From NCBI RefSeq assembly GCF_000372865.1, contig NZ_KB889965.1, positions 2,897,450 to 2,961,449 of the forward strand: a DNA stretch of 64,000 nt. The letters run 5' to 3'. The position numbers and the translations under genes were made by a program. Below are positions 24,833-60,743 of the stretch, piece after piece. The notes beneath the pieces are model-generated. The model ran no database searches and was not told the origin of the DNA. It worked only from the letters and a program-made list of their open reading frames with translations. Source of the DNA: Methylosarcina fibrata AML-C10. Its GTDB lineage: Bacteria > Pseudomonadota > Gammaproteobacteria > Methylococcales > Methylomonadaceae. Numbering within the stretch: the stretch's first letter is position 1; each line of letters opens with the position of its first letter.

Positions 24833-27310
24833 TCAAAACTCCACTTTAATGGAGCCGATTGCCATCAACGGCGCGCCCGGATAAATGCCGTTGCGCGGCG
24901 AGACGTTGGAATCGGGATCGGTCGATTCGTAATAGGTTTTGTCCAACAGGTTGCGGATATTGAATTGTGCAGTCACCGGCGTTTTTTTGACGTTCCACTT
25001 ATAGGCGGCGAAGGCGTCCACGCGCACGTAACCCGGCAACTGGAAGGGATCTCCGTAATAGAAAAAATTGCCTTCACGCTGGCCTGCCGCGATTCCGCCC
25101 AGGCCGACGCTGAACCCTTCCAGAGCCTGATGACCGTTGAAATCGTACTTAAGCCACAAACTGCCGGCGTGCTCCGGTACGTTGGGCAGGCGACTGCCCT
25201 CGCCGCCGTCGTTGTTTTTGGTGATGCGGGCATCGGTATAAGCATAACTGCCGATAATGCTGAATCGGTCGGTCAGTTGACCGGTCACGTCCAGCTCGAT
25301 ACCCTGGCTGCGCGCTTCGCCAATCGCCGCGCTGACGTTCGGTTCACCCGGCACCGAGGTTAAAATGTTGCTCTTGGTCAGATGGTAATAAGCCAGCGTC
25401 GCCAGGAGCCGGTCATCGAACAACTGCGTCTTGACGCCCGCCTCGAATTGCTCGCCGATTTCGGGATCGAACGTTTGCCCGGTCGCCGACACGCCGTTAT
25501 TGGCGCCGAACGAGGTCGTCCAGTTGCCGTATACGCTCAGCCAGTGCCACGGTTGATACAGAATGCCGACGCGCGGGCTGAAGCCCTGGTCCTTCCGTTT
25601 GATCGAAGGCGACGAGCCTTCCAGGGCGTTGTCGGCTTCATCAAAACTGCCGCCGCGACCGCGGCCGACTTGCGTCCAGTCGTAGCGGCCGCCGCCGAAA
25701 ACATGCAGCTTGTCCCACAAGGTGATGTGATCCTGGAAATAAACCCCGTACCATTGCGTGACGAAGCGCGAGTAATTTCTGCCCGGCTGCACATAAGTCG
25801 CCAGCGTTCTGTCGAAAACGGAAGGATCGATGCCGTAGCTGGCGCTGGGGTTATAGATGTCGATGGCAAGATCAGGGTTCGGATTTTGCCAGTCGCCCTG
25901 GGTATGATAGGTTGTATGCGATTGGGTATAGTCGAAGCCGACCAGGATGTCGTGTTTGGTTTGCCAAAGATTGAACTTGCCGGTCAGATCGAGGTTGGTC
26001 GCGTAGGCTTCGACCAAGTTTTCTTCCGAAAAAATATTCCTGTCCAGCGTCCGGTTGTCGGGCCTGAGCGCGTTGCCGAACGCGGGCGACGGATTGACGA
26101 AAGTCATCTCGACTTTTTCCCGGCTCATCAGGAAACGGTTATGAACCGCCCAATCGTCGTTAAAGCGGTGATTGAACTCGGTGCCCAGGTGCACCTTGGA
26201 AAGATGATCGACCGGATCATTGGGGTCGCCGAAGGAGTTTTCGATCGGAATCGGCGCAGGCCGGTCGCCGATGGCCGGAATGCCGAAGTCGGCTTGAAAA
26301 TCCTGGTCAACGCCTTCGACGTTGAAGCTGAGTTCGGTTCGGTCGCTGATTTTCCAGGTCAGGCTCGGCGAAACCATCACCCGATCGGTAAAGATCAAAT
26401 CGCGAAACGACTCGTTGTTCTGGTAGGAACCAGTGAATCGATACAGCAAGTTTTTGCCGTCGTCGATCGGCCCGGTCGCATCCCACTGAGTACGGTAATA
26501 ATCGTAGGAGCCAAACTGCTGTTCCAGCGAGTAATACGGCAGGTTTAGCGGTTTTTTGGTGGTCACGTTGATCAGGCCGCCCGGTTCGCCGCGTCCATAT
26601 AGCATCGCCGCCGGGCCTTTCAGCACTTCGACGCTCTCCAGATTAGCGGTGTCGAATTCGCTGTTGAAGCCGTTCGATTGCGTGGTCAACAAACCGTTAC
26701 GAAAGACTTGATCCTGACGAAAGCCACGCACGATGAAGCCCGTACCCATGCCCAGCGTCGGTTGGGCGCGCACGCCGCTGACGTTTTCGAGCGCATCCTT
26801 GATCCGGACGGACTTCTGATCGTTCATGACCGTTCTCGGCACGACCTGAACCGAGGCCGGCGTCTCGATGAGCGGCGTGTCGGTCTTGAGGGCCGTGCTG
26901 GAATTGACGACCGTATAAGCCGTATTGTAAGGATCGGCCGCATCGAAGTCGGCTTCGCCTTGTACCGTCATCGGCGGCAGCGTATCGCTTGCCCGGGTTC
27001 CCTCCACGGCCTTTGCCTTCAGGGCCGCCGCGTTACTACCGGTAAAGGTATAATCGATGCCGGTCCCCGCCAGCAGCCTGCCCAATGCCTTGCCCGGACG
27101 GTAGGGACCTTGCAGCCCGGCGCTGCGTTTGCCCTGCAATAGGCCGTCGGCGTAAAACAGATGCACTCCGCTCTGCTTCGAAAATACATCGAGCGCGGAC
27201 GCCAGAGGCTGCGCCGGAATGTTGAAATCGACGGTGTTTTCCTGAGCGGCCTGAGCGACGGCAACCACTCCGAGCCATAAACCCAGCGCGGCGGGCGATG
27301 AAAGATGCAT
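24833..27310 (-). CDS. TonB-dependent ferri-siderophore receptor with STN domain but no adjacent sigma/FecR (825 aa)
   Basis: Signal peptide 1-21, STN domain from FNIPAQPLASALDVFSKQSG to GSNAAALKA, TonB-box-like PPMTVQG, linker DPYNTAYTVVNSSTALKTD, plug with ESVEVLKGPAAMLYGRGEPGG, and barrel ending IKVEF. ATG at 27310 with GGAGG upstream. It is closest in the window to the receptor at 35029 (shared NSSTA-KTD linker and GIYPGAPL near the end), and both have a PepSY gene downstream. Upstream lies a toxin-antitoxin remnant where a FecR would be expected, so it either answers to a distant sigma or lost its pair. Confidence 0.94.
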   Translation of the reverse strand: MHLSSPAALGLWLGVVAVAQAAQENTVDFNIPAQPLASALDVFSKQSGVHLFYADGLLQGKRSAGLQGPYRPGKALGRLLAGTGIDYTFTGSNAAALKAKAVEGTRASDTLPPMTVQGEADFDAADPYNTAYTVVNSSTALKTDTPLIETPASVQVVPRTVMNDQKSVRIKDALENVSGVRAQPTLGMGTGFIVRGFRQDQVFRNGLLTTQSNGFNSEFDTANLESVEVLKGPAAMLYGRGEPGGLINVTTKKPLNLPYYSLEQQFGSYDYYRTQWDATGPIDDGKNLLYRFTGSYQNNESFRDLIFTDRVMVSPSLTWKISDRTELSFNVEGVDQDFQADFGIPAIGDRPAPIPIENSFGDPNDPVDHLSKVHLGTEFNHRFNDDWAVHNRFLMSREKVEMTFVNPSPAFGNALRPDNRTLDRNIFSEENLVEAYATNLDLTGKFNLWQTKHDILVGFDYTQSHTTYHTQGDWQNPNPDLAIDIYNPSASYGIDPSVFDRTLATYVQPGRNYSRFVTQWYGVYFQDHITLWDKLHVFGGGRYDWTQVGRGRGGSFDEADNALEGSSPSIKRKDQGFSPRVGILYQPWHWLSVYGNWTTSFGANNGVSATGQTFDPEIGEQFEAGVKTQLFDDRLLATLAYYHLTKSNILTSVPGEPNVSAAIGEARSQGIELDVTGQLTDRFSIIGSYAYTDARITKNNDGGEGSRLPNVPEHAGSLWLKYDFNGHQALEGFSVGLGGIAAGQREGNFFYYGDPFQLPGYVRVDAFAAYKWNVKKTPVTAQFNIRNLLDKTYYESTDPDSNVSPRNGIYPGAPLMAIGSIKVEF

Positions 27311-27380
27311 GTTTCCTCCGAGATTGATGACAGTCTCGGATAAGACGGCTCAGTCGGGAAGGGACCGCCACGGCAAGGCG

Positions 27381-27390
27381 AAATTTTTTT
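27381..27390 (-). promoter_or_regulatory. A/T tract upstream of receptor, candidate ECF promoter element
   Basis: Minus-strand AAAAAAATTTCGCC lies 71-80 nt before the ATG at 27310 and is nearly the same as the tract before the receptor at 35029. CCGTCTTATCC nearer the gene could be the -10 part. Confidence 0.35.
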
Positions 27391-27528
27391 CGTTTGCCAT
27401 CGTGTATTTTCAAAGCGAACTTCGCTTCCGGAGTCCAAAGGATCGGCCGTCGAATTATCGTCGGTCAGCCAGCACCCCGGATTGCGTTGTGCGGAAACAG
27501 GGTTTTCGTGGTGGCCGAAAACAGAAGG

Positions 27529-27930
27529 TCATCGCCGAGCGTCAAAGCGTTTCAGCGTATTGTTCCATTGTAATAGCGGTTGGTCGGCGGTCAGGAGTAG
27601 CGCTCCTTTGATCTGGGCGGTGGCCACAATGAGCCGGTCTGCGGGGTCGCCGTGCAGGACAAGTTGGGCGGCTGCGATGCCGATGTCGCCATCAACAGGA
27701 ATTTCAAGCAACCCCAGGCGCAGAAGGTCGCGCCGCCACGCCGCTGGCGGCAGTGCCATGGTTATCCGCCCTTTGGCGACGAGCATGGCGGTTTCCCAGA
27801 ATGAGATCGCCGAAACCGCCAGTTATCCCTGCTGTAATGCGAGGTCGGCACACTTTCGTGCTTCGGCTCCCAAGGAGGGATCATCCTGGTCAAGCCAAAT
27901 CAAGGCATGCGTGTCTAGCAGGACGAACAT
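27529..27930 (-). pseudogene. PIN-domain toxin (VapC-like) broken by an in-frame stop
   Basis: The reading frame starts at the ATG at 27930 (MFVLLDTHALIWLDQDDPSL), overlaps the antitoxin gene by 16 bp, and carries a TAA at 27823-27825 (codon 36). After the stop the same frame continues as LAVSAISFWETAMLVAKG and ends with DRLIVATA and LLTADQPLLQW, the usual VapC C-terminal acidic motifs. So one base change probably inactivated a complete ribonuclease toxin of about 133 codons. The downstream part alone is open from 27786. Unless the stop is read through, only the antitoxin is functional. Confidence 0.82.
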
Positions 27931-28148
27931 TCGGCATCCCAGGGTTCACCTAACGTTCCCACGATATCCCCGGCAATGCCGATTTTACTTTTATGGCAGC
28001 CGGCGAGGGTCGCAGGTCTTGAGACTATCGGACTTAGCTGCGCTACCGGCTGGCCGTTTTTGATGATGATGCTATCGCCTGAATCCGTCACTTCGTTCAT
28101 GAGTTGCAGGCATTTGGCTTTAAATTCGGAAGCTTTAACGGTTTTCAT
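27915..28148 (-). CDS. Phd/YefM-family antitoxin (77 aa)
   Basis: N-terminal MKTVKASEFKAKCLQLMNEV and SIIIKNGQPVAQLSP are typical of Phd/YefM antitoxins, which bind DNA through the N-terminus and neutralise the toxin through the C-terminus. The ATG at 28148 has a GGGGG ribosome site. It precedes and overlaps the PIN-toxin pseudogene, in classic antitoxin-toxin order. With the toxin broken it may be a free antitoxin. Confidence 0.88.
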   Translation of the reverse strand: MKTVKASEFKAKCLQLMNEVTDSGDSIIIKNGQPVAQLSPIVSRPATLAGCHKSKIGIAGDIVGTLGEPWDAECSSC

Positions 28149-28384
28149 TCTATTACCCCCTAAATGACTATGGGCATGACTATAGTTCTGCGAATATAGA
28201 AAATCAAACGGATTGGAGAAAGGGGCCGGGTTGTCATCTATAGATTATGAACTGCGCCGCCTACGGCAAGATTTCCCCGCGAACGGAACGATGGAAACAT
28301 TTGGAATATATTCGACCTATACTTGACCACGCCTGTATAGCGAGCCATGATTGACCGACCCTAGCCAAGGCTATGAGCATTTCC

Positions 28385-28627
28385 ATGCAAGTCAACATTC
28401 TCGAAGCGAAAAACCGCTTGTCCGGCTTGGTTGCCGCCGCCGAGCACGATGAAGAAGTCATCATTGCCCGCAACGGCGTGCCTGTCGCCAAAATCGTCAA
28501 ATACAGCGCGCCGCGGGTAGCGACGTCCGGTGCCTGGAAAGGCAAGGTTTCCTATTCGGAGGACTGGAACTCGGCCGCCACCAACGCAAAGGTTGAAAGT
28601 TTATTCCACGATGCGCCTGTTGCTTGA
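28385..28627 (+). CDS. Phd/YefM-family antitoxin (80 aa)
   Basis: Begins MQVNILEAKNRLSGLVAAAE and contains EVIIARNGVPVAKIVKY, the Phd/YefM core. The ATG at 28385 fits the family; an ATG at 28373 adds four residues. It points away from the antitoxin at 27915, and its last codons overlap a short toxin fragment at 28611. The two neighbouring antitoxins are different subtypes, so they are two modules rather than a duplication. Confidence 0.85.
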   Translation: MQVNILEAKNRLSGLVAAAEHDEEVIIARNGVPVAKIVKYSAPRVATSGAWKGKVSYSEDWNSAATNAKVESLFHDAPVA

Positions 28628-28700
28628 TACGTGTATCGTGTACGACGGGTTGATGGGCGTCATTGCGGACCGCCCGTTGATTAGTGCAGCCTTCCGGTAA
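28611..28700 (+). pseudogene. Truncated PIN-domain toxin fragment (29 codons)
   Basis: The frame overlaps the antitoxin stop, as in intact modules, and begins MRLLLDTCIVYD, the first acidic motif of a VapC toxin. After IADRPLI it stops at 28698-28700. The other catalytic residues are missing, so it cannot be an active ribonuclease. The break lies just before a 20-bp inverted repeat at 28715-28799. Confidence 0.7.
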
Positions 28701-28714
28701 TTTCAGCGAGTAGG

Positions 28715-28799
28715 TTGATGACATGGACTCCTCTTTACTCCGTTTAATTGATTTGGTGCATTATGACACCGCAGGAGGGAGAGGAGTCCATATCATCAA
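28715..28799. repeat. 20-bp inverted repeat (19/20) beside the toxin remnant
   Basis: TTGATGACATGGACTCCTCT at 28715-28734 and its near-exact reverse complement at 28780-28799 enclose 45 bp. It sits between the truncated toxin and the receptor at 28863, so it could be the receptor's terminator structure or the scar of a small mobile element. Confidence 0.5.
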
Positions 28800-28862
28800 T
28801 CTACGCGGCTACGCGCTACCTTACGGGTTTATCCAGCTTACCGCGTAGTTTAGACGGAATAT

Positions 28863-31343
28863 TTAAAACTCTATTTTTACCGATCCTAAAAACGTCAGCG
28901 GCGCTCCGGGAAAAATACCGTTGGAAGCGGAATTCTGCGATGAAGCGTAGTAATGCTTATCCAGAACATTATCAATATTTAACTGCGTAGTAATTTTTGA
29001 TTTGTTCAGATACCAAGAATAAGCTGTCATCAAATTAAAGGTAGCGAAGCCGGGAAGTTGAAATTTGTTGGCGTTATTGCCTTCTCGTTGTCCACGCGCA
29101 ATCATGCCTGCGCCGAATTTAAGCCCGCGCATATCGCCGCTTTGTAGTTCATAAGTCGCCCAAAAACTTCCACCATGTTTTGGTACATTGAAGAACCGGT
29201 TTCCTTTGTTCCCGCTGTTGTCCCGTGTGATTTCAGAATCGGTAAGAGCATAACTGCCTATGACATTCAAGCCGGGATAAACCTCTCCTGACATATCCAA
29301 TTCCAAACCTTGGTTACGCACCTCGCCAGTGTTGATAGAAATGCCTCTGTTTGCAAGATCCGGGTCTGGATGCGGCGTGGCAATATTATGTTTGGTTAAA
29401 TCAAACCATGCGAGCGACGCGGTTAAACGATCATTGAATAACTGCATTTTCATGCCTACTTCCCATTGCTCGGCCGTTTGTGGAGGCAGAGCTTTATTGT
29501 TTTGATCTTTATTGAATGTATTTGCTAGCCCGAAATTCTCGACATAGTTGCCATAAAAACTCAATTCATGTAGAGGCTGCCATACGACACCGAATCGGGG
29601 CTTCACTGCATCTGCGCGCTGATTTCCTATAGTTGTATCTGTAGGGGAGTTTCTTGCCGTAAACACATCTTTAGTAGCCACTTCCGCATCATCGTAACGA
29701 AAACCGGCTAATAGCTGAATATTAAAAGGAAGCTTGACTTGATCTTGAACATAAAATCCGTACCAGTTTTCATCAATACTAAATATTTCTGTAGTGTTAG
29801 GATTATTTAATAAGCCAACAGAAGTTTCCGTAAAAATTGGATTAAATAAATCAACTGCCTGTGCTGTTGCGACTTTTGCCAAGCCGCTTGATGCCGTTGA
29901 ATTGTAATAATCCCACCCGAATAACAAGGTGTGCTCAAGTGGTCCGGTATCAACCTTCCCTGTCAAATCGAGCGATGTATAATATTGTTCGCCAGACCAA
30001 TTACTGGTTCGTATTCTCCGGTTCATATTACAAGTTGAAAGATTACAGCCGTTGGCAGGACCGGCCACAGCTATACCAGGAGATAACGGGAAATCCGCTA
30101 TAAGCGCATTAAATTTATGGCTCACAGACCAGCGGTCATTGAATGCATGAGACCAATTTAGCCCGGCCCAAAACGAATCGCTTTCTTGTATCAATCCTTG
30201 AGGTCCCGCTAAGTTGCGGTTGCGCGGCACTGCGGCGGGTCTCGTCCCGATTGCCGGCAATCCTTGATCGAAAGTATCACTGCCGTGTTTGTATTCAAGT
30301 TCCAATGTTGCTTGCGTTTTATCGCCGATATTCCAACGCAGGACCGGCGCAAAAAATACGCGGTCGTTATTGACAAAATCACGAAAGGAACCGGCGTCTT
30401 CATAAGCGAAATTGAGACGATAAAGCAGGGATTTATCGTCATTAATAGCCCCTGTCGCATCCGCCATCGTTCTATAAAAATCGAACGATCCGAATTGCTG
30501 CTGTAACGAATAATACGGCGTGGACAAAGGTTGCTTTGTGACAACATTGACCATGCCGCCCGGCTCTACTCTTCCATAAAGAATCGAAGAAACACCTTTA
30601 AGCACCTCGACACGTTCGAGATTTGCAGTTTCTCTAAATCCGTCTGTCAGCCATGATGCGCTTACCCTCGTACCATTGCGATAAAATTCATTGTTTAGGA
30701 AGCCTCTTATCATTGCTCCGCTTTGATTATGACTGTCTCTCGTCAATGTATAGACACCACTGACATTATCAAAAGCTTTTTCCAAACGTACAACTTGTTG
30801 ATCGTTTAACACTGCCCTAGGGATAATTTGAATATTAGCCGGCGTTTCCATGATCGGCGTATCGGTCTTGGTCGCCGTCGTGGCGTTGGGCCGGTTGTAA
30901 TCCGGGTTGTAGGGGTCTGTGGAATCGTATTCGGCATTACCCGTCACCGTCATCGGCGGCAGCGTGCTTGCACCGGGCGCGGAGTTGATGGGCACCGATC
31001 GTTTTTCCAGCGTGACGGTATGATCGTTGATGTAGCGGTAACCATAACCGCTGCCCTGCAGCAACCGGTCGAGCGCCTGTTCCGGTGTCATCCGCCCCTC
31101 CAGGCTTTTGGCATTCAGCCCGCGTATGCCGTCGGCATTGAAAACCACTTCCAGACCGGAATCGGCGGCGAATGCCATCAGCGCATTGTTGAGCGATTGT
31201 GCCGGAATGTGGAAGTCGCGTGCGGCATCGGCGGCCGCTACGGTTTGGACGTTCAGCCAGACGCCGAAGCATACCGTCGCCGCCGTCCGTAGCATCGTGC
31301 CGTGCCGGAGCCTGTGAGTCCTGTTGTCGAAATGTCGTTGCAT
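28863..31343 (-). CDS. TonB-dependent ferri-siderophore receptor with STN domain, GC mosaic (826 aa)
   Basis: Signal peptide about 1-38, STN domain from FHIPAQSLNNALMAFAADSG to NDHTVTLEK, TonB-box-like PPMTVTG, linker DPYNPDYNRPNATTATKTD, plug with ERVEVLKGVSSILYGRVEPGG (VSS where relatives have PAA), barrel ending VKIEF. The coding sequence changes from GC-rich (30840-31343) to clearly AT-richer (28863 to about 30830) right at the linker-plug junction. That points to replacement of plug and barrel by recombination, keeping the signalling part. A loop has two cysteines (NGCNLSTCN). ATG at 31343. Partners are FecR 31793 and sigma 32905. Confidence 0.95.
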   Translation of the reverse strand: MQRHFDNRTHRLRHGTMLRTAATVCFGVWLNVQTVAAADAARDFHIPAQSLNNALMAFAADSGLEVVFNADGIRGLNAKSLEGRMTPEQALDRLLQGSGYGYRYINDHTVTLEKRSVPINSAPGASTLPPMTVTGNAEYDSTDPYNPDYNRPNATTATKTDTPIMETPANIQIIPRAVLNDQQVVRLEKAFDNVSGVYTLTRDSHNQSGAMIRGFLNNEFYRNGTRVSASWLTDGFRETANLERVEVLKGVSSILYGRVEPGGMVNVVTKQPLSTPYYSLQQQFGSFDFYRTMADATGAINDDKSLLYRLNFAYEDAGSFRDFVNNDRVFFAPVLRWNIGDKTQATLELEYKHGSDTFDQGLPAIGTRPAAVPRNRNLAGPQGLIQESDSFWAGLNWSHAFNDRWSVSHKFNALIADFPLSPGIAVAGPANGCNLSTCNMNRRIRTSNWSGEQYYTSLDLTGKVDTGPLEHTLLFGWDYYNSTASSGLAKVATAQAVDLFNPIFTETSVGLLNNPNTTEIFSIDENWYGFYVQDQVKLPFNIQLLAGFRYDDAEVATKDVFTARNSPTDTTIGNQRADAVKPRFGVVWQPLHELSFYGNYVENFGLANTFNKDQNNKALPPQTAEQWEVGMKMQLFNDRLTASLAWFDLTKHNIATPHPDPDLANRGISINTGEVRNQGLELDMSGEVYPGLNVIGSYALTDSEITRDNSGNKGNRFFNVPKHGGSFWATYELQSGDMRGLKFGAGMIARGQREGNNANKFQLPGFATFNLMTAYSWYLNKSKITTQLNIDNVLDKHYYASSQNSASNGIFPGAPLTFLGSVKIEF

Positions 31344-31630
31344 GAGTTCTCCGGGTTATGGTTGTATCTGCTAGAGAACCCGTGCGAACCGGAAAAAATC
31401 ACCGTGAGCCGATGCAACTATTTTGTATGCCGATGCGGTATAAAAATATTTTTACTTATAATTCAAATAAATAAGACTTGATAAACGGCATGATTTTGTC
31501 AATTCGATAGAACGGGCGCAGGCAGCGGCTGCCGCGACCGGAGGCGTAAGACGATCTTGGACGTGGCGGGGTTGGTAACCTCGTTGCTTACGTTTGGCCA
31601 TGAGCATTGGCCAATAAAATGAAACGTAAC

Positions 31631-31709
31631 GGTCGGGTTTGCAAAACCCGACCGGCGCGAGTAAATATGTGCGTCCATGCGCCGTAGGTGCGAATTTATT
31701 CGCACCTAC
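31631..31709. repeat. Two strong palindromes in a 449-bp gap
   Basis: GGTCGGGTTT at 31631-31640 pairs with 31644-31653, and GTAGGTGCGAA at 31684-31694 pairs with 31699-31709. Both lie in the gap 31344-31792 between receptor and FecR, where I see no gene. Such palindromes recur in the window (43313-43335) and look like dispersed repeats; here they could weaken transcription from FecR into the receptor. Confidence 0.55.
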
Positions 31710-31792
31710 AATAAGATAGCGCTTTCGCCCTGCTCCCACTCTTGTCTTTCGATTTTCACGGTAACCGCATTGCCTTTCTGACCGGGGCTTTG

Positions 31793-32821
31793 CTAACGAT
31801 GCAGCCACACCCACCACGGACCGACGCGGGTTTGCCGCAACCCCAACGCCCGGCAGACCGAATCGAGCACCTTGTCCGGATCGTCCACGGTAAAGACGCC
31901 GGTGATGCGCAGCTTTTCCAGCCCGTCACCGCGCAGAAAAACACGTCCTGCACGGTAGCGGCCCAACTCTTCGACCAATTCGGACAGCGGCCGGTCGTTG
32001 ACCCACAAGCGATGCCGCTGCCAGGCCGTGGCCTGGTCGAGCGGGACCGGTTCGGGGGCCGGCAACAGGCTTCCCGGCCGGTAACTCAGCTTTTGGCCTT
32101 GTTCCACTTCAATTTCGGAAGGCGGCTGCCGGGCCGCTGCCGGATCAAGGCCCACGGCGACCGCATGCTCCTGCACAGTGACGGTCACGTCGCCGCTGTC
32201 GGCCTGATACACGTCGAAGACCGTGCCGAGGGCGCGAACCGCCAGCCCGTTCGCCTGCACGACGAACGGCCGGCGCGGGTCCCCGACCACGGTAAAGCGC
32301 GCCTGCCCCCGATGCAGGATAACGTTTCGACGGAATGCGGTGAAATCCACCGAGACGGCGGACTCGGTGTTCAACAGCAGGCGGCTGCCGTCGCTGAGCG
32401 TAAACTCGCGCATCTCGCCGGTTTGCGTGCGGTAATCGCCGAACAGTGCGGCCAGCGGATGGAAACGGCCCGGCAGGATCAGGTTGACGGCCAACAGCCA
32501 GACGGCGGCCGCCGCCAGCGAGGCGGACAGCCACACGGGGTAGCGTTTTCGGCCCCGCCTGCCCGCAACCGGCAAGTCTGCGTGAACCGGCGCAGCGTTG
32601 GCCGCCCGGTCCGTGCTTTGCGCGCGTGCGGCCAGGGCCATCTCGTCGAACAAATTTTCCGCCTCGCCGAAGGCTTCGGCATGGGCCGCATCCTCGGCCA
32701 GCCAGTTCGCGAAAGCGCGCACTTCCTCGTCGCTCATGTCGTCCGAGCGCAACCGCACCAGCCAGTCGATCGCCTGGCATTTGATTTCGGAGCGCTGAGT
32801 GTCGTTTGCGGTTAGCGGCAT
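31793..32821 (-). CDS. FecR-type anti-sigma/sigma regulator (342 aa)
   Basis: DUF4880 region (AIDWLVRLRSDDMSDEEVRA, FANWLAEDAAHAEAFGEAEN), a membrane helix near WLSASLAAAAVWLLAVNLI, a FecR domain (LSDGSRLLLNTESAVSV, LHRGQARFTVVGDPRRPF, AVRALGTVFDVYQAD) and the C-terminal ITGVFTVDDPDKVLD. ATG at 32821. It resembles the FecRs at 38555 and 20430 in the QARF/VFxV motifs. Partners are sigma 32905 and, after the palindromic gap, receptor 28863. Confidence 0.93.
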   Translation of the reverse strand: MPLTANDTQRSEIKCQAIDWLVRLRSDDMSDEEVRAFANWLAEDAAHAEAFGEAENLFDEMALAARAQSTDRAANAAPVHADLPVAGRRGRKRYPVWLSASLAAAAVWLLAVNLILPGRFHPLAALFGDYRTQTGEMREFTLSDGSRLLLNTESAVSVDFTAFRRNVILHRGQARFTVVGDPRRPFVVQANGLAVRALGTVFDVYQADSGDVTVTVQEHAVAVGLDPAAARQPPSEIEVEQGQKLSYRPGSLLPAPEPVPLDQATAWQRHRLWVNDRPLSELVEELGRYRAGRVFLRGDGLEKLRITGVFTVDDPDKVLDSVCRALGLRQTRVGPWWVWLHR

Positions 32822-32904
32822 GACGGAAGGTTAGAGAAAGTGGGCTCTGATAAACAATAATACGTTCGACGGACGAAATCGTACAGTGATGATGGCTGCG
32901 ATGT

Positions 32905-33429
32905 TCATGCGTCGTCCAGCCGGTCCGCGCAATGCGCCATCGCTTTAGCCAGGTGCTTGCCGACCATGGACTTGGAAATGCCCATGCGCGCGGCAATTTC
33001 GGTGTAACCGAGGCCTTCGACGCTGTGCAATACGAATGCGGTCCGGCAGTTGGCCGGCAAATCGTCGAGCGCCTGCTGCAACCGTCCGAACCGTTGCTTC
33101 GAGATGAGGATGCGTTCCGGATTAGCCGAATCTTGACCCGCAAGGGTATCGTGCAGCGTATCAGTATCGATTTCGGCGCCGAAGCGGTTTCTGACCGCTA
33201 TCTTCCGCTGATAGTCGACCGCCAGATTGACGGCGATATGAAACGCCAGCGCGCGGGCGTCGTCCGGCGGGCTTTCCCGACAAATCCGGTGCAGCCGGAG
33301 ATAGGTTTCATGCGTCAAATCGGCGGCTGTTTCCCGGCACTTCAAACGTCCGGTCAAAAACCGCAGCAAATCCTTCGCGAGCGGCTCGGACCAAAAGGAT
33401 AAGGTTAAGGCTGATGCGGAGTCGGTCAC
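32905..33429 (-). CDS. FecI-type ECF sigma factor (174 aa, non-ATG start)
   Basis: Region 2 as CRETAADLTHETYLRLHRI and FHIAVNLAVDYQRKIAVR, region 4 as LPANCRTAFVLHSVEGLG and the helix-turn-helix RMGISKSMVGKHLAKAM. There is no ATG: the choices are GTG at 33429 or TTG at 33435, and no strong ribosome site is visible, so expression may be low. It leads the module with FecR 31793 and receptor 28863. Its tandem operator lies unusually far upstream, about 300 bp. Confidence 0.92.
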   Translation of the reverse strand: MTDSASALTLSFWSEPLAKDLLRFLTGRLKCRETAADLTHETYLRLHRICRESPPDDARALAFHIAVNLAVDYQRKIAVRNRFGAEIDTDTLHDTLAGQDSANPERILISKQRFGRLQQALDDLPANCRTAFVLHSVEGLGYTEIAARMGISKSMVGKHLAKAMAHCADRLDDA

Positions 33430-33731
33430 GGTCAAGGCGTGTTCAAATCATGTTGGCGATTCATCGGGCCGGTTGGCGCTTTCTTCCGCTGAAGAGGCAT
33501 CGTGATATTGTCCGTGTCTGACTCAGCGAGCTATCGCAAACTATAGGCAAAAATCATGCCTTTATTAGCCGGGGGACGAGTGGTTTCGCCGGATCACGCA
33601 GTGCAATTCTCCGGATGCGGACGGAGCAACCAGGGATACAAAGGCAAAACCGCCAGCCCAACCGGCTTCGGCAAGCACGGTCTCCTGTTTTTTCGCGCTC
33701 CGGTCAGACTATCTACTAAAGAAAAAAGTGT

Positions 33732-33765
33732 GTCATATCACGCAGTCGTTGCGGCAAACGACGTA
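33732..33765. promoter_or_regulatory. Tandem 13-bp operator-like repeat (site G)
   Basis: GTCATATCACGCA at 33732-33744 and GGCAAACGACGTA at 33753-33765, offset 21 bp, in the gap 33430-33803 between sigma 32905 and the end of the PepSY gene at 33804. It is about 300 bp before the sigma start, further than the other sites. The rest of the gap shows no gene. Confidence 0.57.
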
Positions 33766-33803
33766 CTTTTTCGGAAACGGGAAGTCGGTGCCATGAACGG
33801 AAT

Positions 33804-35015
33804 TCAGGACGGACGTCGAGCCGTGCGCCGCGCCCGGCGTTTCTGCCGCCAGCGGATAAGGCCGCTGACGTAAAGCAGCAGAGGTGCCAGGCCGACAATG
33901 CACCAAACGATACGGCCGGCAAGCCCCAAGGCTTCGCCGCTGTGCAGCGGCCACAGCACGTTCAAGAACGTTTCTCCCCCGGTAAACCGGTTCGGATCTT
34001 GCACGGCCAAGATTTGGCCGCCATACTGGTCGATCCATACCTTGCTGCGCGGCCAGCGACGGTTGGCTTCGCCCGCTTGCCTTTTCGAAATACAGTAAAC
34101 GCCTTCCTTGCCGTCGGGCGTTTCCACGCCGCGCAGTTCCGCATCGGGGAAAATCCTGTCTGCAACCGCCACAGCGCGCGCTACCGAAATCGGTCGCGCA
34201 CCCGCAGAAAGCCGGGACCGAACATCCGGTTCCTGCAGATGCTTGTCCTTGACGGCCGAAACAACGCGTACCAGCGGCTTGATGTAATCGGCATAACCAA
34301 ACGAAAATCCGGTAAACGCCAGAATCAATAGAATAATCGAACTGTAAAAGCCGGTAGTCTTATGCAAATCGAAATAAAACCGCTCAGGACTTGCGCCCCG
34401 TTTTACGGTCACGGCTTTTTTGAAATTTCCCCCGCGCGGCCACCACAGATAAAGCCCGGTCGAAGCGGACGTGAACAAAAACAAGCCGAAAAAACAAACC
34501 GAGTTAAAACCGATCCGCCCGACTCGTGGACCGATTTTGCCGGTCATTAACGCGGCGTGCACTTCATAGATCAAGGTCCATAACGTGCGTCCCCAATAAC
34601 TCTCGGCCACGATTTTTCCGCTGTAAGGATCAACCAGTACCCGGAAGGGCGCATACAACTCATCGGCGGTTTCTGTCGGCTTCGGGTATTCCGCCCATAA
34701 ATAATCGTTGCCATAGCCCGGCAACAGCAGCGACCATTTTCCCTGCTTGTCCGGATGCGCGGCTCGAACCGTTTGCAGGATGTCGTCCAGCGAACGTGGC
34801 AGTGCCCCGGTTTCATGACGTACCGGCGGCAGCCCCAGCTCTTCCAGCTCATGGATGAAGACATTAAAAGACCCCGTCAGCCCAAGAACGACAAAGAAAA
34901 ATCCCAGCGTCAGGGCAAGCCATAAATGCACTTTCAGCCAAGCGCCGCGAACACGCCGGCGCCAGCGCGAGGCGCTATTGATACTTGCAGACATCGTCAA
35001 AAAATAAGATCGCAT
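33804..35015 (-). CDS. PepSY-associated TM-helix inner-membrane protein, putative ferri-siderophore reductase (403 aa)
   Basis: Third PepSY protein. Helices include LALTLGFFFVVLGLTGSFNV, SVCFFGLFLFTSASTGLYLW and FYSSIILLILAFTGFSFG; histidines are in KVHLWLA, YEVHAALMTG, DLHKTTG and PLHSGEALGLAGR. It is more distant from the other two copies than they are from each other. The ATG at 35015 has a GGAG ribosome site that overlaps the receptor stop region at 35029, so the receptor and this gene are one operon. It is expected to act on the ferri-siderophore taken up by that receptor. Confidence 0.91.
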   Translation of the reverse strand: MRSYFLTMSASINSASRWRRRVRGAWLKVHLWLALTLGFFFVVLGLTGSFNVFIHELEELGLPPVRHETGALPRSLDDILQTVRAAHPDKQGKWSLLLPGYGNDYLWAEYPKPTETADELYAPFRVLVDPYSGKIVAESYWGRTLWTLIYEVHAALMTGKIGPRVGRIGFNSVCFFGLFLFTSASTGLYLWWPRGGNFKKAVTVKRGASPERFYFDLHKTTGFYSSIILLILAFTGFSFGYADYIKPLVRVVSAVKDKHLQEPDVRSRLSAGARPISVARAVAVADRIFPDAELRGVETPDGKEGVYCISKRQAGEANRRWPRSKVWIDQYGGQILAVQDPNRFTGGETFLNVLWPLHSGEALGLAGRIVWCIVGLAPLLLYVSGLIRWRQKRRARRTARRPS

Positions 35016-35028
35016 GGTGATCACTCCC

Positions 35029-37536
35029 TCAAAATTCCAGACGGACCGAACCCATCGCCGTCAGCGGCGCACCCGGGTAGATGCCGACGCGCGGCGGCGC
35101 GTTTTGAAACGGGTCGGTGGATTCGTAATAGGTCTTATCGAGCAGATTGCGGATATTGAATTGCACGGTCAGACGCGAATCACGGAGTTGATAGGTATAG
35201 CCGGTATAGGCATCCAAACGAACGTAGCCCGGCAACACGAAGGTATTGTCGTCATCGCCCTGCCGCTGGCCGGCGGCGAACACGCCCACGCCGAACTGCC
35301 ACCCGTTGAGCGGCTGGTAATGACGAACGTCATACTTGAGCCACAGGCTGCCGGAATGCTCGGGCACGTTGTTCAGGCGGTTGCCCTGCAATCCGGAGTA
35401 GTCTTGGGTGATACGGGCATCGGTAAAGGCATAGTTGCCGATGAGGCTGAGTTCGTCGGTAATCCGGCCGTTCAAGTCGAACTCGATGCCCTGGCTGCGC
35501 GCCTTGCCGATCGCGGCCATGGCGAAAGGATCCGGACTATTGAAATCCCGAGTCAAAATGTTTTCTTTGGTCAAATGGTAATAAGCCAATGTTGTAATTA
35601 GACGCTGATCGAAAAACTCGGTTTTCAAACCGGCTTCGAATTGCTCGCCTCTTTCCGGATCGATCGTTGCACCGGTCGAGGTGAGGCCGTTGTTCGCCCC
35701 GAACGAAGTGGTCCAGTTGCCGTAAACGCTGGCCCAAGGCCAGGGTTGATAAAGTATGCCCACGCGCGGACTGAAGCCCGTATCCTTGCGCGTCGGCAAA
35801 GCCGCTTCGGCAGCCTCAAACGAATCACCTCGGCCACGACTCGTCGTAGCCCATTCGTAACGCCCTCCGCCGAGGATGTGAAGCCTATCCCAGAGCGTAA
35901 TGTGGTCCTGGAAGTACACGCCATACCAGTCATCTCTAAAATAGCTATGGTTTCTGCCAATCGGGAACGGCGTCGACAGCGCCTGAGCATAGAAGGAAGG
36001 GTCGATGCCGTATACCGGGTTATAAATATCGATTTCCAGGCCAGGCACCGGCGCCTGATAATTACCCTGCGTCAGATAAGTGCCGGTCGAGCGCAAGTAA
36101 TCGAAGCCCATCAACGTTTGATGCCGAGTACCCCACAATTCCAGATTGCCCGTTAAATCCAGATTGGTGGTATAAGTCTCGGATGAAGCGGCCTGCGAAA
36201 AAATATTGCGCAAATAGGTGCGGTTGCCTGCACTCGGATCGAGAAACTGTGCGACCGTGAACGCATTAGCGGGCTTGACCGAGATATTGTTGTCATCGAC
36301 AAAAGTCGCCAGAAACCGATTGCGCAGCGTCCAGTCCGCATTGAAGGCATGGGTCAAATTAAAGCCAAGGTTCACTCGGGAATTAGTATCGACAGGATCG
36401 TTGGGATCGATGAAGGAGCGGCTAACCGGAATCGGCGCCGGCCGGTCGCCGATCGCGAACAGGCCTCTGTCGACCTGATAGTCCTCATGCAACGCTTCCA
36501 CTTCCAGGGAAATTTCGGTGGCGTCACCGGGCCGCCAGGTCAAAGACGGGTTCACCAGCACCCGGTCGTTAAAATTGAAATCCCGGAACGAACGATTGTT
36601 TTGATACGCACCGGTAAATCGGTAACTCAACGACTTGTCTTCGGTCACCGCATCGGTGGCATCCCATTCGGTGCGATAGAAATCGTAGGAGCCGAACCGC
36701 TGCTCCAGAGAATAATAGGATTCGTCCCGAGGCTTTTTGGTGACCAGGTTGATCAGGCCTCCGGGCTCGATACGCCCGAACAGCACCGCCGCCGGGCCTT
36801 TCAACACTTCGATCCGCTCCAGGTTGGCGGAATCGAAATTCGATTCTTCACCGACGGACAAACCCAGAGCAACCAGACCGTTACGGTAGATGCGTCCGTT
36901 CCGGAAGCCGCGGACAATAAAAGCATTGCTTCTGCCCAAAGACGATTGCGGCCGCACGCTGCTGACGTTTTCGAGCGCGTCTTTGATCGTCGTCGTTTTT
37001 TGATCGCTCATCACCGCTTTCGGCACCACCTGAATCGATACCGGCGTTTCGATGATCGGTGTATCGGTCTTGGTCGCCGTGCTGGAGTTGTGGATGGTGT
37101 AATCCGTATTGTAAGGATCGGAAGAATCATAGGCGGCCGTCCCGCTCACCTGCACGGCCGGCAAGGTCGCCGCCGACTTCGGTTCCAACTCCGCCTTGTT
37201 CAGCTTCGGTTCGATAATCGCCGTATCGCCGCCCACCATCCGGTAGCCGAGGCCGGAGCCCTGCAGCAACCTGTCCAAACCATGCTCGACCGTGACCGTT
37301 CCGTGCAGCGCCGGCGCTTTAAGGCCGCGCGTCAGATCGGTATTGATGACCAGCTTCAGATCGGCCTGATCGGCAAAGTCGGTCAGCGATTCGGCCAGAT
37401 GGCCGGCCGGAATCGCATAGGCGCGGGCGGCAGGCAGCGCAGGTTCGGCGGCGGCGCTGCCGGGATGGGCCAGAACCAGCGCCATGGCAGTCAAGGCGGC
37501 GGGCGCCATGTCGTGGTTGACGAGGGTTTTCCTCAT
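35029..37536 (-). CDS. TonB-dependent ferri-siderophore receptor with STN signalling domain (835 aa)
   Basis: Signal peptide about 1-32, STN domain from YAIPAGHLAESLTDFADQAD to GGDTAIIEP, TonB-box-like PAVQVSG, linker DPYNTDYTIHNSSTATKTD, plug with ERIEVLKGPAAVLFGRIEPGG, barrel ending VRLEF. The ATG at 37536 has AGGAG upstream; the frame is open to 37596. Unlike most receptors here it is divergent from the nearest sigma/FecR pair (37967-39517). Close paralogue of the receptor at 24833, including the AAAAAAATTTCGC tract upstream and a PepSY gene downstream. Confidence 0.95.
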   Translation of the reverse strand: MRKTLVNHDMAPAALTAMALVLAHPGSAAAEPALPAARAYAIPAGHLAESLTDFADQADLKLVINTDLTRGLKAPALHGTVTVEHGLDRLLQGSGLGYRMVGGDTAIIEPKLNKAELEPKSAATLPAVQVSGTAAYDSSDPYNTDYTIHNSSTATKTDTPIIETPVSIQVVPKAVMSDQKTTTIKDALENVSSVRPQSSLGRSNAFIVRGFRNGRIYRNGLVALGLSVGEESNFDSANLERIEVLKGPAAVLFGRIEPGGLINLVTKKPRDESYYSLEQRFGSYDFYRTEWDATDAVTEDKSLSYRFTGAYQNNRSFRDFNFNDRVLVNPSLTWRPGDATEISLEVEALHEDYQVDRGLFAIGDRPAPIPVSRSFIDPNDPVDTNSRVNLGFNLTHAFNADWTLRNRFLATFVDDNNISVKPANAFTVAQFLDPSAGNRTYLRNIFSQAASSETYTTNLDLTGNLELWGTRHQTLMGFDYLRSTGTYLTQGNYQAPVPGLEIDIYNPVYGIDPSFYAQALSTPFPIGRNHSYFRDDWYGVYFQDHITLWDRLHILGGGRYEWATTSRGRGDSFEAAEAALPTRKDTGFSPRVGILYQPWPWASVYGNWTTSFGANNGLTSTGATIDPERGEQFEAGLKTEFFDQRLITTLAYYHLTKENILTRDFNSPDPFAMAAIGKARSQGIEFDLNGRITDELSLIGNYAFTDARITQDYSGLQGNRLNNVPEHSGSLWLKYDVRHYQPLNGWQFGVGVFAAGQRQGDDDNTFVLPGYVRLDAYTGYTYQLRDSRLTVQFNIRNLLDKTYYESTDPFQNAPPRVGIYPGAPLTAMGSVRLEF

Positions 37537-37642
37537 GTTTTCTCCTAATCTTGTTTGTGAGGACGATGGGGCGTATCGAACGCTCCTTTTCTTCACAACG
37601 TTTCAGGAAAAAAATCATGAATACGGGGGCCGTATATTCGCG

Positions 37643-57706: not shown

Positions 57707-59426
57707 GCCTCCTGGAATGGATACTCCACCCCAGCTGTTTCGTCATTAACTCCAAGCCGCCGTTTTACCCTCTGCAAACGGCGCACCGACCGACATGAAA
57801 ACAACCCTTGGAGCACCAATGACCCATAAACCCTCCCCTCTTCGCCACGGCATCATCCCGCCTAAAAACGGCGCCCCGGCCAAGGCGCGTGCCTTGGCCC
57901 TGACCGTCTCCGCCCTCTGCATCGGACCATTGCTGATGTTGCCCCCGCAAGCCGCCGTGGCTGCGTCGGACGACAGCGCCAGCCAGACCACTTTTGACTT
58001 CGCGATTGCTAAAGGCTCGCTCTCCAGCGCGCTGCTGCAATTTTCCGAAACCACCGGCAAGAAGGTGCTGTTCAATGCCGATCTGGTGCGGGGGCTGAAC
58101 AGTTCCGGCTTGCACGGCCGCTATAGTACGGAGCAAGCGCTGCGTAAGCTGCTGTCTGGCAGTGGCCTGATGCCCAGAGAAACCGGCAGCGGCAGCGTGA
58201 CGCTGGAAAGGACACCGCACTCCTCATCGGCATTGGGAGAATCGACACTGGGAGCCGTGACGGTAACGGGCAGCGCGGACTACAATTCGACCGATCCGTA
58301 TAACCCGAACTACAATCGCACTAACGCATTCACTGCTACCAAGCTCGACACTCCGATCATGGAAACGCCTTATTCGGTTTCTGTCGTGCCGCAACAAGTA
58401 TTCAAGGACAAACAGGTCGTCCGCGTTGAAGACGCGGTCAACACGGTGGCCGGGGTGCAGACCAGTTGGACCAACGGCGGCACCAGCGACGTATTCATGA
58501 TGCGTGGATTCCAGAACACCAACCTGTATCGTGACGGTTTTTTGTTGCCGTCAATTTTAGGCGGCGGTTCAGCGAGACGGCAAACCGCCAATTTGGAGCA
58601 GATTGAAGTGCTGAAAGGGCCTGGCTCTATCCTGTTCGGACGCAACGAGCCCGGCGGCGTGATCAACTTAGTGACCAAGCGGCCGTTAGCAACTTCTTAT
58701 AATTCAATCCAACAACAGTTCGGTTCGTACGGATTTTACCGGACTTTGGTTGATTCGACCGGTGCTGTCACATCCGACCACACGCTGTTGTACCGAGCTA
58801 ATCTGTCTTATGAAAACGCCGGTTCATTCCGTGATTTCGTCAGTAACGATGACGTATTTTTTGCACCGAGCCTGACCTGGAACATCTCCGACCGGACGCA
58901 AGCCAATCTGGATGTTACCTACGAGCATTTCGACGACAAAAATGATTCGGGCATACCATCGTTTGGCAACCGCCCGGCGCCGATTCCGATCAATCGGGCG
59001 ATCCATGAGCCTAAAGCCAACAAAAACCGCGGCGACAGAACTTATGTCGGTTTCAACTGGTGGCATGAATTCAACGACAATTGGAAAATCAGCCATCGCT
59101 TCGGTGCCGAATTTACCGATTTGGAGTCCGATTTCATCTTCTTCGGATTTCCGGATCCGGCGGGCAACCTGAACAATGTCGGCAATGACTACCGTGGTTT
59201 CAACAACGGCATCGTGCATGAACAGAATTACTACACAACTCTGAATTTGACCGGCAAGTTCAATACCGCCATGCTGGAACACAGCACGTTGTGGGGCTTT
59301 GACTATTTTGTGATCGACGATCAGGGAGAAGGCTCTTGTTGTGACGACTTCCGGGGTGGGGCAGGTTTCAATATCTTCAACCCCACTTATCTCACCTCAA
59401 GGCCAGACTTCGTTTACACCCCTGGT

Positions 59427-60743
59427 CATTACTGTCCGGTTAAGAACGGTCTGAAATCGCTATAAGCCATGATTTTCAAGATCTCCAGCGCAATAAAAAG
59501 TGGTGTCGATTTGAACGAAGATTTGGTGCAACCTTCCGGCTTTTGCCCGGGAGGCGGCAATGAATACTGGCAAGACTTTGTTTGCCCAACTCATGGACTT
59601 TTTGCCATGGACCACATTCACGCGCATCGTCGACCGTTACGACGGCAACCGTCGGGTACGAACCTTTTCGTGCGCCGAACATTACCGAGTGATGGCCTTT
59701 GCGCAACTGACCTACCGGGAAAGCCTGCGCGACATCGAAGCCAGTTTGTCGGCGCAAGCCCACAAGCTCTACCACCTGGGGTTCCGGGAACCCGTGCGGC
59801 GCTCGACTCTGGCCGACGCCAACGAAACACGCGATTGGCGGATCTACGCGGAATTTGCTCAGCGGTTGATTGCTCATGCGCGAACACTCTACGCCCAGGA
59901 AGACTTGGGATTGGAACTGACGAACACGGTCTATGCGTTGGACTCGACCACGATCGACTTGTGCCTGTCGGTGTTTCCTTGGGCCTTGTTCCGATCCACC
60001 AAGTCGGCGGTCAAAATGCACACTTTGCTTGACCTTCGGGGCAACATTCCGAGTTTCATCCATATCTCTGACGGCAAGCTGCATGATGTCCATGCGCTCG
60101 ATCTGTTGTTGCCCGAAGCCGGCGCCATCTATGTGATGGACCGGGGTTATATCGATTTTGCCAGACTCCATGCGCTGCACCGTGCGGGCGGTTTCTTTGT
60201 GACCCGTGCCAAAACCAACCTGGCTGCGCACCGCGTCTACTCCCATCCGGTGGACCGAGAAACCGGCTTGGTGTGCGACCAGACCATCGCGCTGGACGGC
60301 TTCTACACCCAGAAAGACTATCCCGATCATTTGCGCCGTATCCGTTTTAACGACCTCGACAACGGCAAGCGTTTGATCTTTCTGAGCAACCACTTCGAGT
60401 TACCGGCACTGACGATCTGCCTGCTCTATAAAAGCAGGTGGCAAGTTGAACTGTTTTTCAAATGGATCAAGCAGCATCTTCGCATCAAACAATTCTATGG
60501 AACCTCCGAGAACGCCGTAAAAACCCAAATCTGGATTGCCGTTTCGGTCTATGTGCTGGTTGCCATTATCAAGAAACGACTCAATTTGGAGGCTTCCCTG
60601 TACACTTTGTTACAGATTTTATCAGTCACTCTGTTTGAAAAAATCTCATTACAACAGGCACTTGTGAATTCACAACACAAATCCAGCAGCTCGGATTTCG
60701 ATAACCAATTAGATTTATTTAACTTTTAAACCGGACAGTAGTG
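59427..60743 (+). mobile_element. IS4-family insertion sequence with 9-bp target duplication (1317 bp)
   Basis: The ends read CATTACTGTCCGGTT and, in reverse, CACTACTGTCCGGTT, imperfect terminal repeats of about 15 bp with one mismatch. ACCCCTGGT is present on both sides (59418-59426 and 60744-60752), a 9-bp target duplication. The element carries one transposase gene. Intact ends, gene and duplication show recent transposition into the receptor. Confidence 0.9.
59560..60729 (+). CDS. IS4-family transposase (389 aa)
   Basis: N-terminal DUF4372-type region (FAQLMDFLPWTTFTRIVDRY, FSCAEHYRVMAFAQLTYRES), then the DDE core: VYALDSTTIDLCLSVF, IYVMDRGYIDFARLHAL, and YKSRWQVELFFKWIK, the IS4 signature Y-x2-R-x3-E-x6-K. 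ATG at 59560 with GGAGG before it. It differs from the transposase at 41790. Complete and probably active. Confidence 0.94.
   Translation: MNTGKTLFAQLMDFLPWTTFTRIVDRYDGNRRVRTFSCAEHYRVMAFAQLTYRESLRDIEASLSAQAHKLYHLGFREPVRRSTLADANETRDWRIYAEFAQRLIAHARTLYAQEDLGLELTNTVYALDSTTIDLCLSVFPWALFRSTKSAVKMHTLLDLRGNIPSFIHISDGKLHDVHALDLLLPEAGAIYVMDRGYIDFARLHALHRAGGFFVTRAKTNLAAHRVYSHPVDRETGLVCDQTIALDGFYTQKDYPDHLRRIRFNDLDNGKRLIFLSNHFELPALTICLLYKSRWQVELFFKWIKQHLRIKQFYGTSENAVKTQIWIAVSVYVLVAIIKKRLNLEASLYTLLQILSVTLFEKISLQQALVNSQHKSSSSDFDNQLDLFNF

Follow-up and report, generated by a model that had tools for sequence, protein, structure and literature searches.

Introduction

Receptors such as FecA, FpvA and FoxA are TonB-dependent transducers that work with FecI/FecR regulators. 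According to the available text of one account, the signalling domain (STN) contacts the C-terminal domain of a FecR-type protein, and the loop that leads to the plug holds the TonB box (PMC11637429). The parts have also been recombined in the laboratory. As the available portion of PMC9249621 relates, the PupBA chimera, which joins the PupB STN domain to the PupA plug and barrel (Koster et al. 1994), has the barrel's transport specificity and signals through the STN domain's partner, and the reverse chimera, PupAB, kept transport and lost signalling. For the pyoverdine synthesis and FpvA loci of Pseudomonas, frequent recombination and horizontal transfer have been suggested, for the synthetase clusters, in the available part of PMC11444679. 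Among the Methylosinus MbnT receptors, which occur with MbnI/MbnR, the accessible text of PMC3621798 describes both forms with a signalling domain added at the N-terminus, accompanied by a FecIR-like pair, and forms with neither.

The receptor considered here, from Methylosarcina fibrata AML-C10, is like the FecA, FpvA and FoxA transducers in being an STN-plug-barrel receptor beside FecR and ECF sigma factor genes. It is unlike them in that its STN domain and barrel appear to have separate ancestries, a difference in the history of the locus and not in mechanism. As in the PupB/PupA chimeras, so far as that partial source describes them, the STN domain of one receptor would stand on the plug and barrel of another; unlike them, the present chimera would be natural, recurrent in related bacteria and joined at a common block, and it is known here from sequence alone. 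The Pseudomonas loci resemble our case in frequent recombination and transfer, but the available part of that account (PMC11444679) is without an exchange between signalling domain and transporter. The MbnT methanobactin receptors are likewise methanotroph transporters with an optional signalling domain and FecIR-like pair, but the corresponding text (PMC3621798) is without a module swap.

We propose that the receptor gene is very probably a natural chimera, in which the end of a sigma-FecR-STN module was recombined in frame, at a block of about 100 bp where the plug starts, with an AT-rich plug and barrel of another lineage. A search of open PMC titles and abstract openings, with subscription papers and preprints outside its scope, returned no report of natural STN/barrel exchange among the matches listed, which is weak evidence that such exchange is new to the literature.

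The receptor and its locus

We analysed a window of 64,000 nt (contig NZ_KB889965.1, positions 2,897,450 to 2,961,449), whose central features are collected in the table. The receptor carries an STN domain ahead of a plug and a beta-barrel (Pfam scores of 44.9, 63.4 and 196 bits, each over its cut-off), and FecR and ECF sigma factor genes adjoin it upstream on the same strand, which is the domain order and gene arrangement of a TonB-dependent transducer. The peptide TLPPMTVTG (aa 127-135, 30939..30965, minus strand), a putative TonB-box-like motif by position, lies where a TonB box would be expected, in the loop between STN and plug; its counterparts in the 15 receptors of the same genome are similar, not identical.

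Features of the receptor locus, with positions counted from the first nucleotide of the window
Feature	Position	Strand	Remarks
ECF sigma factor (FecI-like)	32905..33435	-	176 aa, TTG start; Sigma70_r4_2 55.9 bits, Sigma70_r2 28.5 bits (Pfam)
FecR-type regulator	31793..32821	-	342 aa; FecR 71.5 bits, DUF4880 51.7 bits (Pfam)
TonB-dependent receptor ORF	28863-31343	-	826 aa; STN, plug, barrel (Pfam)
STN signalling domain as used here	31002..31220	-	aa 42-114; Pfam STN aa 66-114
Conserved junction block	30840..30938	-	aa 136-168 (NAEYDSTDPYNPDYNRPNATTATKTDTPIMETP); plug start, directly behind the TonB-box-like motif
AT-rich plug and beta-barrel segment	28863..30839	-	aa 169-826 plus stop; Pfam Plug, TonB_dep_Rec_b-barrel; GC3 0.40

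The receptor matches CntO/FoxA chains over aa 34-802 and, in part, a ferripyoverdine receptor (best stretch aa 42-355), and its named relatives belong to Methylomonas, Methylobacter, Methylovulum and other Methylococcaceae. Its barrel part passes the cut-off of the TonB-dependent siderophore receptor family TIGR01783 (350 bits against 223.5). The equivalog families of known ligand all scored below their cut-offs (FhuA 260 against 803, FoxA 220 against 1300, FecA 103 against 1100), and none of the other equivalog families exceeded its own among the best 25 of the 28 families matched. The family comparison therefore gave no named ligand.

The M. fibrata genome has 16 STN matches, and 15 of them are TonB receptors, 14 of which lie within about 90 kb; the remaining match looks like a PilQ-type secretin. 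The other 139 of the 140 class genomes sampled have 0-4 STN matches each. The receptor cluster (contig positions 2875612-2965233) takes in the whole window, 1-64000, and sequence on both sides of it, and most of its receptors have their own FecR and sigma genes. With DUF4880/FecR matches counted as lower bounds (at most 18 candidates scored per genome), this genome has at least 15, the highest number in the 383 genomes sampled from the class; in the control genus used below, a single genome has 21.

Several neighbours are less complete. A short receptor ORF at 57795-59465 (556 aa; STN, plug and part of the length of a barrel, no FecR assigned) is possibly a decayed receptor. A full-length STN receptor at 24833-27310 has no assigned FecR or sigma gene, and toxin-antitoxin-like remnants lie just upstream of it; at 27529-28627, between two receptors, are two Phd/YefM-like antitoxin ORFs and a PIN-domain fragment. 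Elsewhere on the contig are large NRPS loci at 2318633-2349914 and 4877961-4887896, and the second directly precedes an STN receptor.

Composition changes abruptly at the plug start

The first-pass annotation had reported a sharp fall in base composition near 30840, at the linker between STN and plug, and a maximum-likelihood change-point analysis located it there. At codon 168 (window 30839), with a support interval of codons 160-170, GC3 drops from 0.74 to 0.40. This codon is the end of the conserved plug-start block, and the strength of the step (2lnL 64.3) was matched by 0 of 500 shuffles. The downstream part is thus AT-richer, as had been stated, and the profile is stepped, not smooth. 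By gene and domain, GC3 is 0.72 for sigma, 0.80 for FecR and 0.70-0.72 for STN, and falls to 0.45 in the plug and 0.41 in the barrel.

The 14 other STN receptors of the genome provide a comparison. GC3 of plug and barrel lies between 0.59 and 0.85 in 12 of these 14; the low outliers are the focal receptor, R2875 and R4888. Three of the 14 have their best change-point at the same place: R2875 (0.73 to 0.47, 2lnL 28.6), R2942 (0.80 to 0.60, 2lnL 22.9) and, with a weaker step, R2934 (0.81 to 0.67, 2lnL 11.9). Within the plug-barrel segment no second GC3 step was found (best 2lnL 5.1, at codon 259), so that composition sets no 3′ limit to the AT-rich piece; GC climbs to 0.54-0.60 at 28400-28700, the site of a Phd/YefM-like antitoxin ORF.

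Composition by itself is imperfect evidence of chimerism, and a gene of single ancestry could in principle acquire such a profile by selection or codon bias, with no recombination at all. A mild drop from STN to barrel is indeed common: STN has the higher GC3 in 74 of 100 receptors (one of 101 was omitted for its short parts), with a mean difference of 0.066, and the trend is one-sided (z>3 in 17 receptors, z<-3 in 0), which random exchange does not account for. However, the focal difference is 0.30, the differing nearest relatives and incongruent trees described below are independent of composition, and the junctions in relatives are defined by identity instead. We consider a history without recombination extremely unlikely.

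The two halves have different nearest relatives

The first-pass annotation had asked for the two parts to be searched separately, and we used the STN part and the plug-barrel part as separate queries against the same 101 genomes. They returned different best loci. The closest STN domains, at 59-67% identity, are those of G043:C7 (65% in the search), G040:C4 (62%), G014:C25 (61%) and G018:C74 (59%); at these four loci the plug and barrel together are 43, 30, 30 and 46% identical to the focal ones, respectively, and the barrels alone 22-42%. Conversely, the closest plug-barrels are those of G037:C8 (57%), G051:C64 (53%) and G060 (53%), the nearest barrel alone being 54-57% identical, and the STN domains of these three receptors are 29, 33 and 45% identical to the focal one (29-47% overall).

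The regulatory genes go with the STN domain. All four STN-closest loci are within the 8 nearest of 77 by FecR and the 8 nearest of 73 by sigma. In all three parts a group of seven loci is set apart, with identities of 43-59% for sigma, 45-54% for FecR and 51-67% for STN (medians 31.5, 31.6 and 38), and the barrels of the same seven are 18-42% identical to the focal barrel. Two further loci, G060:C1_4358898 and G037:C25_7033, have similar STN domains (52 and 51%) with FecR and sigma at background (31 and 35%), a mismatch indicating that STN and FecR can separate too. A donor of the focal barrel over 57% identity was absent from the list for the 101 genomes; near-identical, donor-like barrel copies were found for relatives only.

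Upstream near-identity to the neighbouring receptors, which the first-pass annotation had described, holds only for the block at 30840-30938. The STN domain itself is 34-48% identical in amino acids to those of the 14 paralogues. The companion statement, that the downstream part is more divergent, did not hold: conservation is highest in the plug taken together with its start block (47-63%), and the barrel (37-48%) has diverged to about the same degree as STN.

These values bear on a history in which the receptor arose by duplication and divergence within the cluster, its 5′ part later being converted by neighbouring receptors. The close clustering of the paralogues and the excess synonymous identity of the block among them (below) would suit gene conversion, but the process accounts for the block at most, not for STN or FecR, and no STN domain of this genome is closer than the 67% reached in other genomes. 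Own paralogues were rejected as the STN source on this comparison, and we regard the gene-conversion history as very unlikely.

Trees on either side of the linker conflict

For phylogenetic analysis we assembled 63 regions with 101 STN receptors, a non-random sample that is a subset of matches picked mostly for resembling the focal protein or a part of it. FecR was assigned to 77 receptors and sigma to 73 by position, up to 2.5 kb upstream, so that a few assignments may be wrong (for example at window 35029-37596, with a 2204-bp gap). The focal locus and the seven outstanding loci, chosen jointly from the STN, FecR and sigma lists and without G060:C1_4358898 and G037:C25_7033, are hereafter the module set. 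It groups as a single clade by FecR (support 100 among 77 rows), by sigma (100 among 73) and by STN (92 among 101), clades that restate the selection because the set was picked from those lists. The independent tests are consequently the plug-barrel tree, the fate of its barrel clade in the other trees, and the correlations over 71 loci given below.

In the plug-barrel tree (100 rows, one of 101 being omitted as less than 60% filled; LG+G4, quick search, with long-branch warnings) the module set falls in at least four places, and a single clade for it is rejected (AU p 2.7e-5, lnL difference 2314). The focal receptor instead groups with G037:C8_52854, G051:C64_112182 and G060:C1_4365817 (support 96), a clade defined after the identities were known. 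This four-row clade is rejected for STN (AU p 4e-82), and the grouping of the focal locus with G037:C8 is rejected for FecR (2e-35) and sigma (3e-36). By AU test, then, the trees on either side of the breakpoint differ significantly, as in a mosaic gene.

The first-pass annotation had proposed domain swapping as the origin of the receptor and recombination tests as a check. Between the composition step, the separate relatives, the trees and the AU tests, which give different ancestries across the linker, its main idea proved right and was understated. Of the outcomes that it had given as refuting, neither a smooth profile nor shared nearest relatives of the two parts was observed. The chimeric origin is strongly supported; the direction of the swap, the ligand and the recombination mechanism are what we infer from it.

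The conserved block and the position of the crossover

At the DNA level the junction block stands out. Over codons 152-168 the focal gene is 65-96% identical to the 14 own paralogues (50-83% over codons 136-151), and over the next 17 codons 43-61%. Where residues are identical, the same codon is used at 0.67 of 181 positions in codons 152-168, against 0.34 expected from codon use, and at 0.29 of 209 positions in codons 169-202. Codon sharing and DNA identity thus fall together after codon 168, which indicates that the host-like DNA stops with the block, and we place the crossover of the focal gene, by inference, inside the junction block or at its end.

This excess is general. We took receptor pairs in which neither half is related, 245 of them within a genome and 4335 from different genomes. 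Their excess of shared codons over expectation peaks at aa 152-168, at 0.154 within and 0.122 between genomes, and is 0.025-0.106 in each of the remaining 13 segments. Exchange recurring through the block would fit this as well as selection acting on the DNA as such.

Amino-acid identity with the focal protein puts the change-point at aa 104-151 in four relatives, at aa 133 in G037:C8 and inside the plug, at aa 184-247, in G014, G043, G018:C74, G051 and G060, which are five of the ten relatives from the module set and the barrel clade. On this measure the breakpoint is blurred, which would count against a chimeric joint at codon 168.

A short repeated block could also mislead an assembler into joining two receptors. 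The block is up to 96% identical to one paralogue over 51 bp, but the ORF is unbroken across the joint and joints of the same type occur in other assemblies, including Methylomonas koyamae and Methylomonas sp. LW13; an artefact of assembly is hardly credible. Repeats of at least 30 nt in 26500-36000 comprise two direct-repeat families, both inside receptor genes, and no inverted repeats, in a search blind to a single copy of the ~85-bp repeat of G010 and G059 described below.

Receptor halves are exchanged widely among related loci

We compared pairwise identities over the 71 loci with all parts (2485 pairs; Mantel tests with 199 permutations). Sigma, FecR and STN correlate with one another at 0.41-0.46 (sigma-FecR 0.46, FecR-STN 0.42; 0 of 199 permutations each), and plug and barrel at 0.84-0.85. 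Across the linker the correlation vanishes (STN-plug -0.01, STN-barrel -0.03 to 0.01), and for sigma against plug and barrel it is weakly negative (-0.09 to -0.13). Nearest neighbours agree between FecR and STN at 44 of 71 loci, between plug and barrel at 45 and between STN and barrel at 11; since about 1 would agree by chance, some loci are still intact.

Individual pairs give the same picture. When barrels are at least 55% identical (114 pairs), FecR identity is below 38% in 97 and at least 45% in 13. For all 15 receptors of the focal genome the barrel-nearest locus differs from the FecR-nearest (12 receptors) or, where FecR is not adjacent, from the STN-nearest (3). We defined swapped pairs by a barrel identity of 65% or more and an STN identity below 50%; of these 68 pairs, 64 have their DNA-identity change-point within focal aa 115-175.

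The moving unit seems to be sometimes the barrel with the next gene and sometimes the barrel alone. Of 28 pairs that differ in STN and have barrels of 75% identity or more, 14 are also alike in the DNA downstream, mostly over ~1.1 kb, which is as long as the PepSY_TM gene that Pfam identifies in G036. Downstream DNA is alike in 11 of 23 same-module pairs (FecR at least 60%, barrels below 45%), the stretch being just 182 bp in one pair. Part of these downstream matches could come from a gene family frequently located behind receptors of this kind.

As a control we searched 13 genomes of a different gammaproteobacterial genus, using 60 regions with 35 complete loci. Its correlations are 0.27 for STN-barrel and 0.18 for FecR-barrel. 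Among its 11 pairs with FecR at least 60% identical, barrels are at least 60% in 9 and below 45% in 2; of the 24 such pairs in the methanotroph set, the first barrel halves are at least 60% in 6 and below 45% in 16. Taken from the barrel side, FecR is below 40% in 5 of 18 control pairs with barrels at least 60% identical. Exchange is present in the control but rarer than in the methanotrophs, the control being a genus and the methanotroph set a family and more. Plug-barrel exchange appears to be widespread in the methanotrophs examined and a common route of receptor evolution there.

Exchanges resolved in relatives and the probable direction of the swap

Two comparisons within one genus capture the event at higher resolution. 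Between G036 and G010, 3.3 kb of plug, barrel and next gene is 98.9% identical in DNA, and the sequence upstream of the linker about 43%. The G036 receptor stands after an NRPS gene (Condensation, AMP-binding, PP-binding, NAD_binding_4) that lacks a close counterpart in G010, the best match there being 51% identical over 597-1459 of 1483 aa. The G010 copy of the barrel follows a sigma-FecR-STN module shared, at 89-97% identity, with G059, a further member of the genus. The likely siderophore cluster at G036:C2 1725106-1747278 (includes L103) has NRPS genes, receptor, PepSY_TM, sulfotransferase, cupin and phosphopantetheinyl transferase in a row.

In the comparison of G059 with G010, DNA identity is 90-93% throughout two divergent modules, between the linkers of their two receptors; the two barrels are 25 and 17% identical, and the sequence beyond both receptors is conserved. 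At one end the difference comprises plug and barrel only; at the other it reaches through most of the next gene. Here barrels were replaced at a constant position while the modules in front of them stayed, which is what we propose for the focal gene. These regions (L090, G010:C1 2986000-3005999; L102, G059:C1 1136000-1155999) contain many dispersed ~85-bp repeats between genes and a small ORF for a putative REP-associated transposase; the 3′ end of the block common to G036 and G010 adjoins such a repeat.

The focal genome offers a further case. Its receptor by the NRPS at 4.88 Mb has a barrel that is 88% identical in G024, where it stands on a different STN domain (34%), and for a 965-aa piece of that NRPS, identity in G024 reaches 36% at best. 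Both this case and that of G036 and G010 would fit the capture of foreign siderophore receptors.

In the focal gene the swap could also have run the other way, a resident AT-rich receptor capturing a sigma-FecR-STN module at the same block. The trees cannot polarise the swap, and of the three receptors closest by barrel, G051 and G060 lack an assigned FecR or sigma gene alongside. In G059 and G010, however, modules stay and barrels are replaced, and in the focal locus the GC3 of sigma, FecR and STN (0.70-0.80) is close to that of plug and barrel in most own receptors, among which the focal plug and barrel are outliers. The host-like composition of the module favours, without proving, the arrival of the barrel at a module already in place; as the search gave no barrel donor, composition is the basis for this direction. 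Capture of the regulatory end is, in our judgement, unlikely.

Proposed mechanism

Under the favoured direction, the sigma-FecR-STN module would be the resident part and the plug and barrel the newcomer, joined in frame by recombination in or beside the conserved block, just behind the TonB-box-like motif. Plug and barrel would bind and import an iron-siderophore-like ligand, and binding would be relayed through the retained STN domain to FecR, the sigma factor then inducing the receptor. A plug-barrel swap would re-aim uptake and induction to a new ligand and keep the control circuit. These functions are assigned from family features (PMC11637429) and from the PupBA chimera (PMC9249621), as given in the available texts of both sources.

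Beyond the single gene, we advance a tentative and somewhat doubtful extension: pools of sigma-FecR-STN sensor modules and of plug-barrel cassettes, sometimes with PepSY_TM, may recombine freely at the plug-start block, whose DNA would be kept beyond the need of the protein as a crossover site. Barrels of other species' siderophore receptors would be captured under native sensors, making a combinatorial system in the methanotrophs of the family.

Implications

As read from the sequences, the signalling and transport halves of siderophore-type receptors have been exchanged in nature at one place, an arrangement whose viability the laboratory PupA/PupB chimera had suggested. Across the methanotroph set examined, almost no history is common to the two halves. 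For annotation this means that the ligand is not to be inferred from the regulatory neighbourhood, nor the regulation from the barrel. The finding also bears on siderophore piracy and on the linker positions that tolerate receptor engineering, and the G059/G010 and G036/G010 loci are natural pairs for the rule that the barrel sets the ligand and STN sets the circuit. By exchanging parts, these bacteria could bring new nutrients under sensors that they already have.
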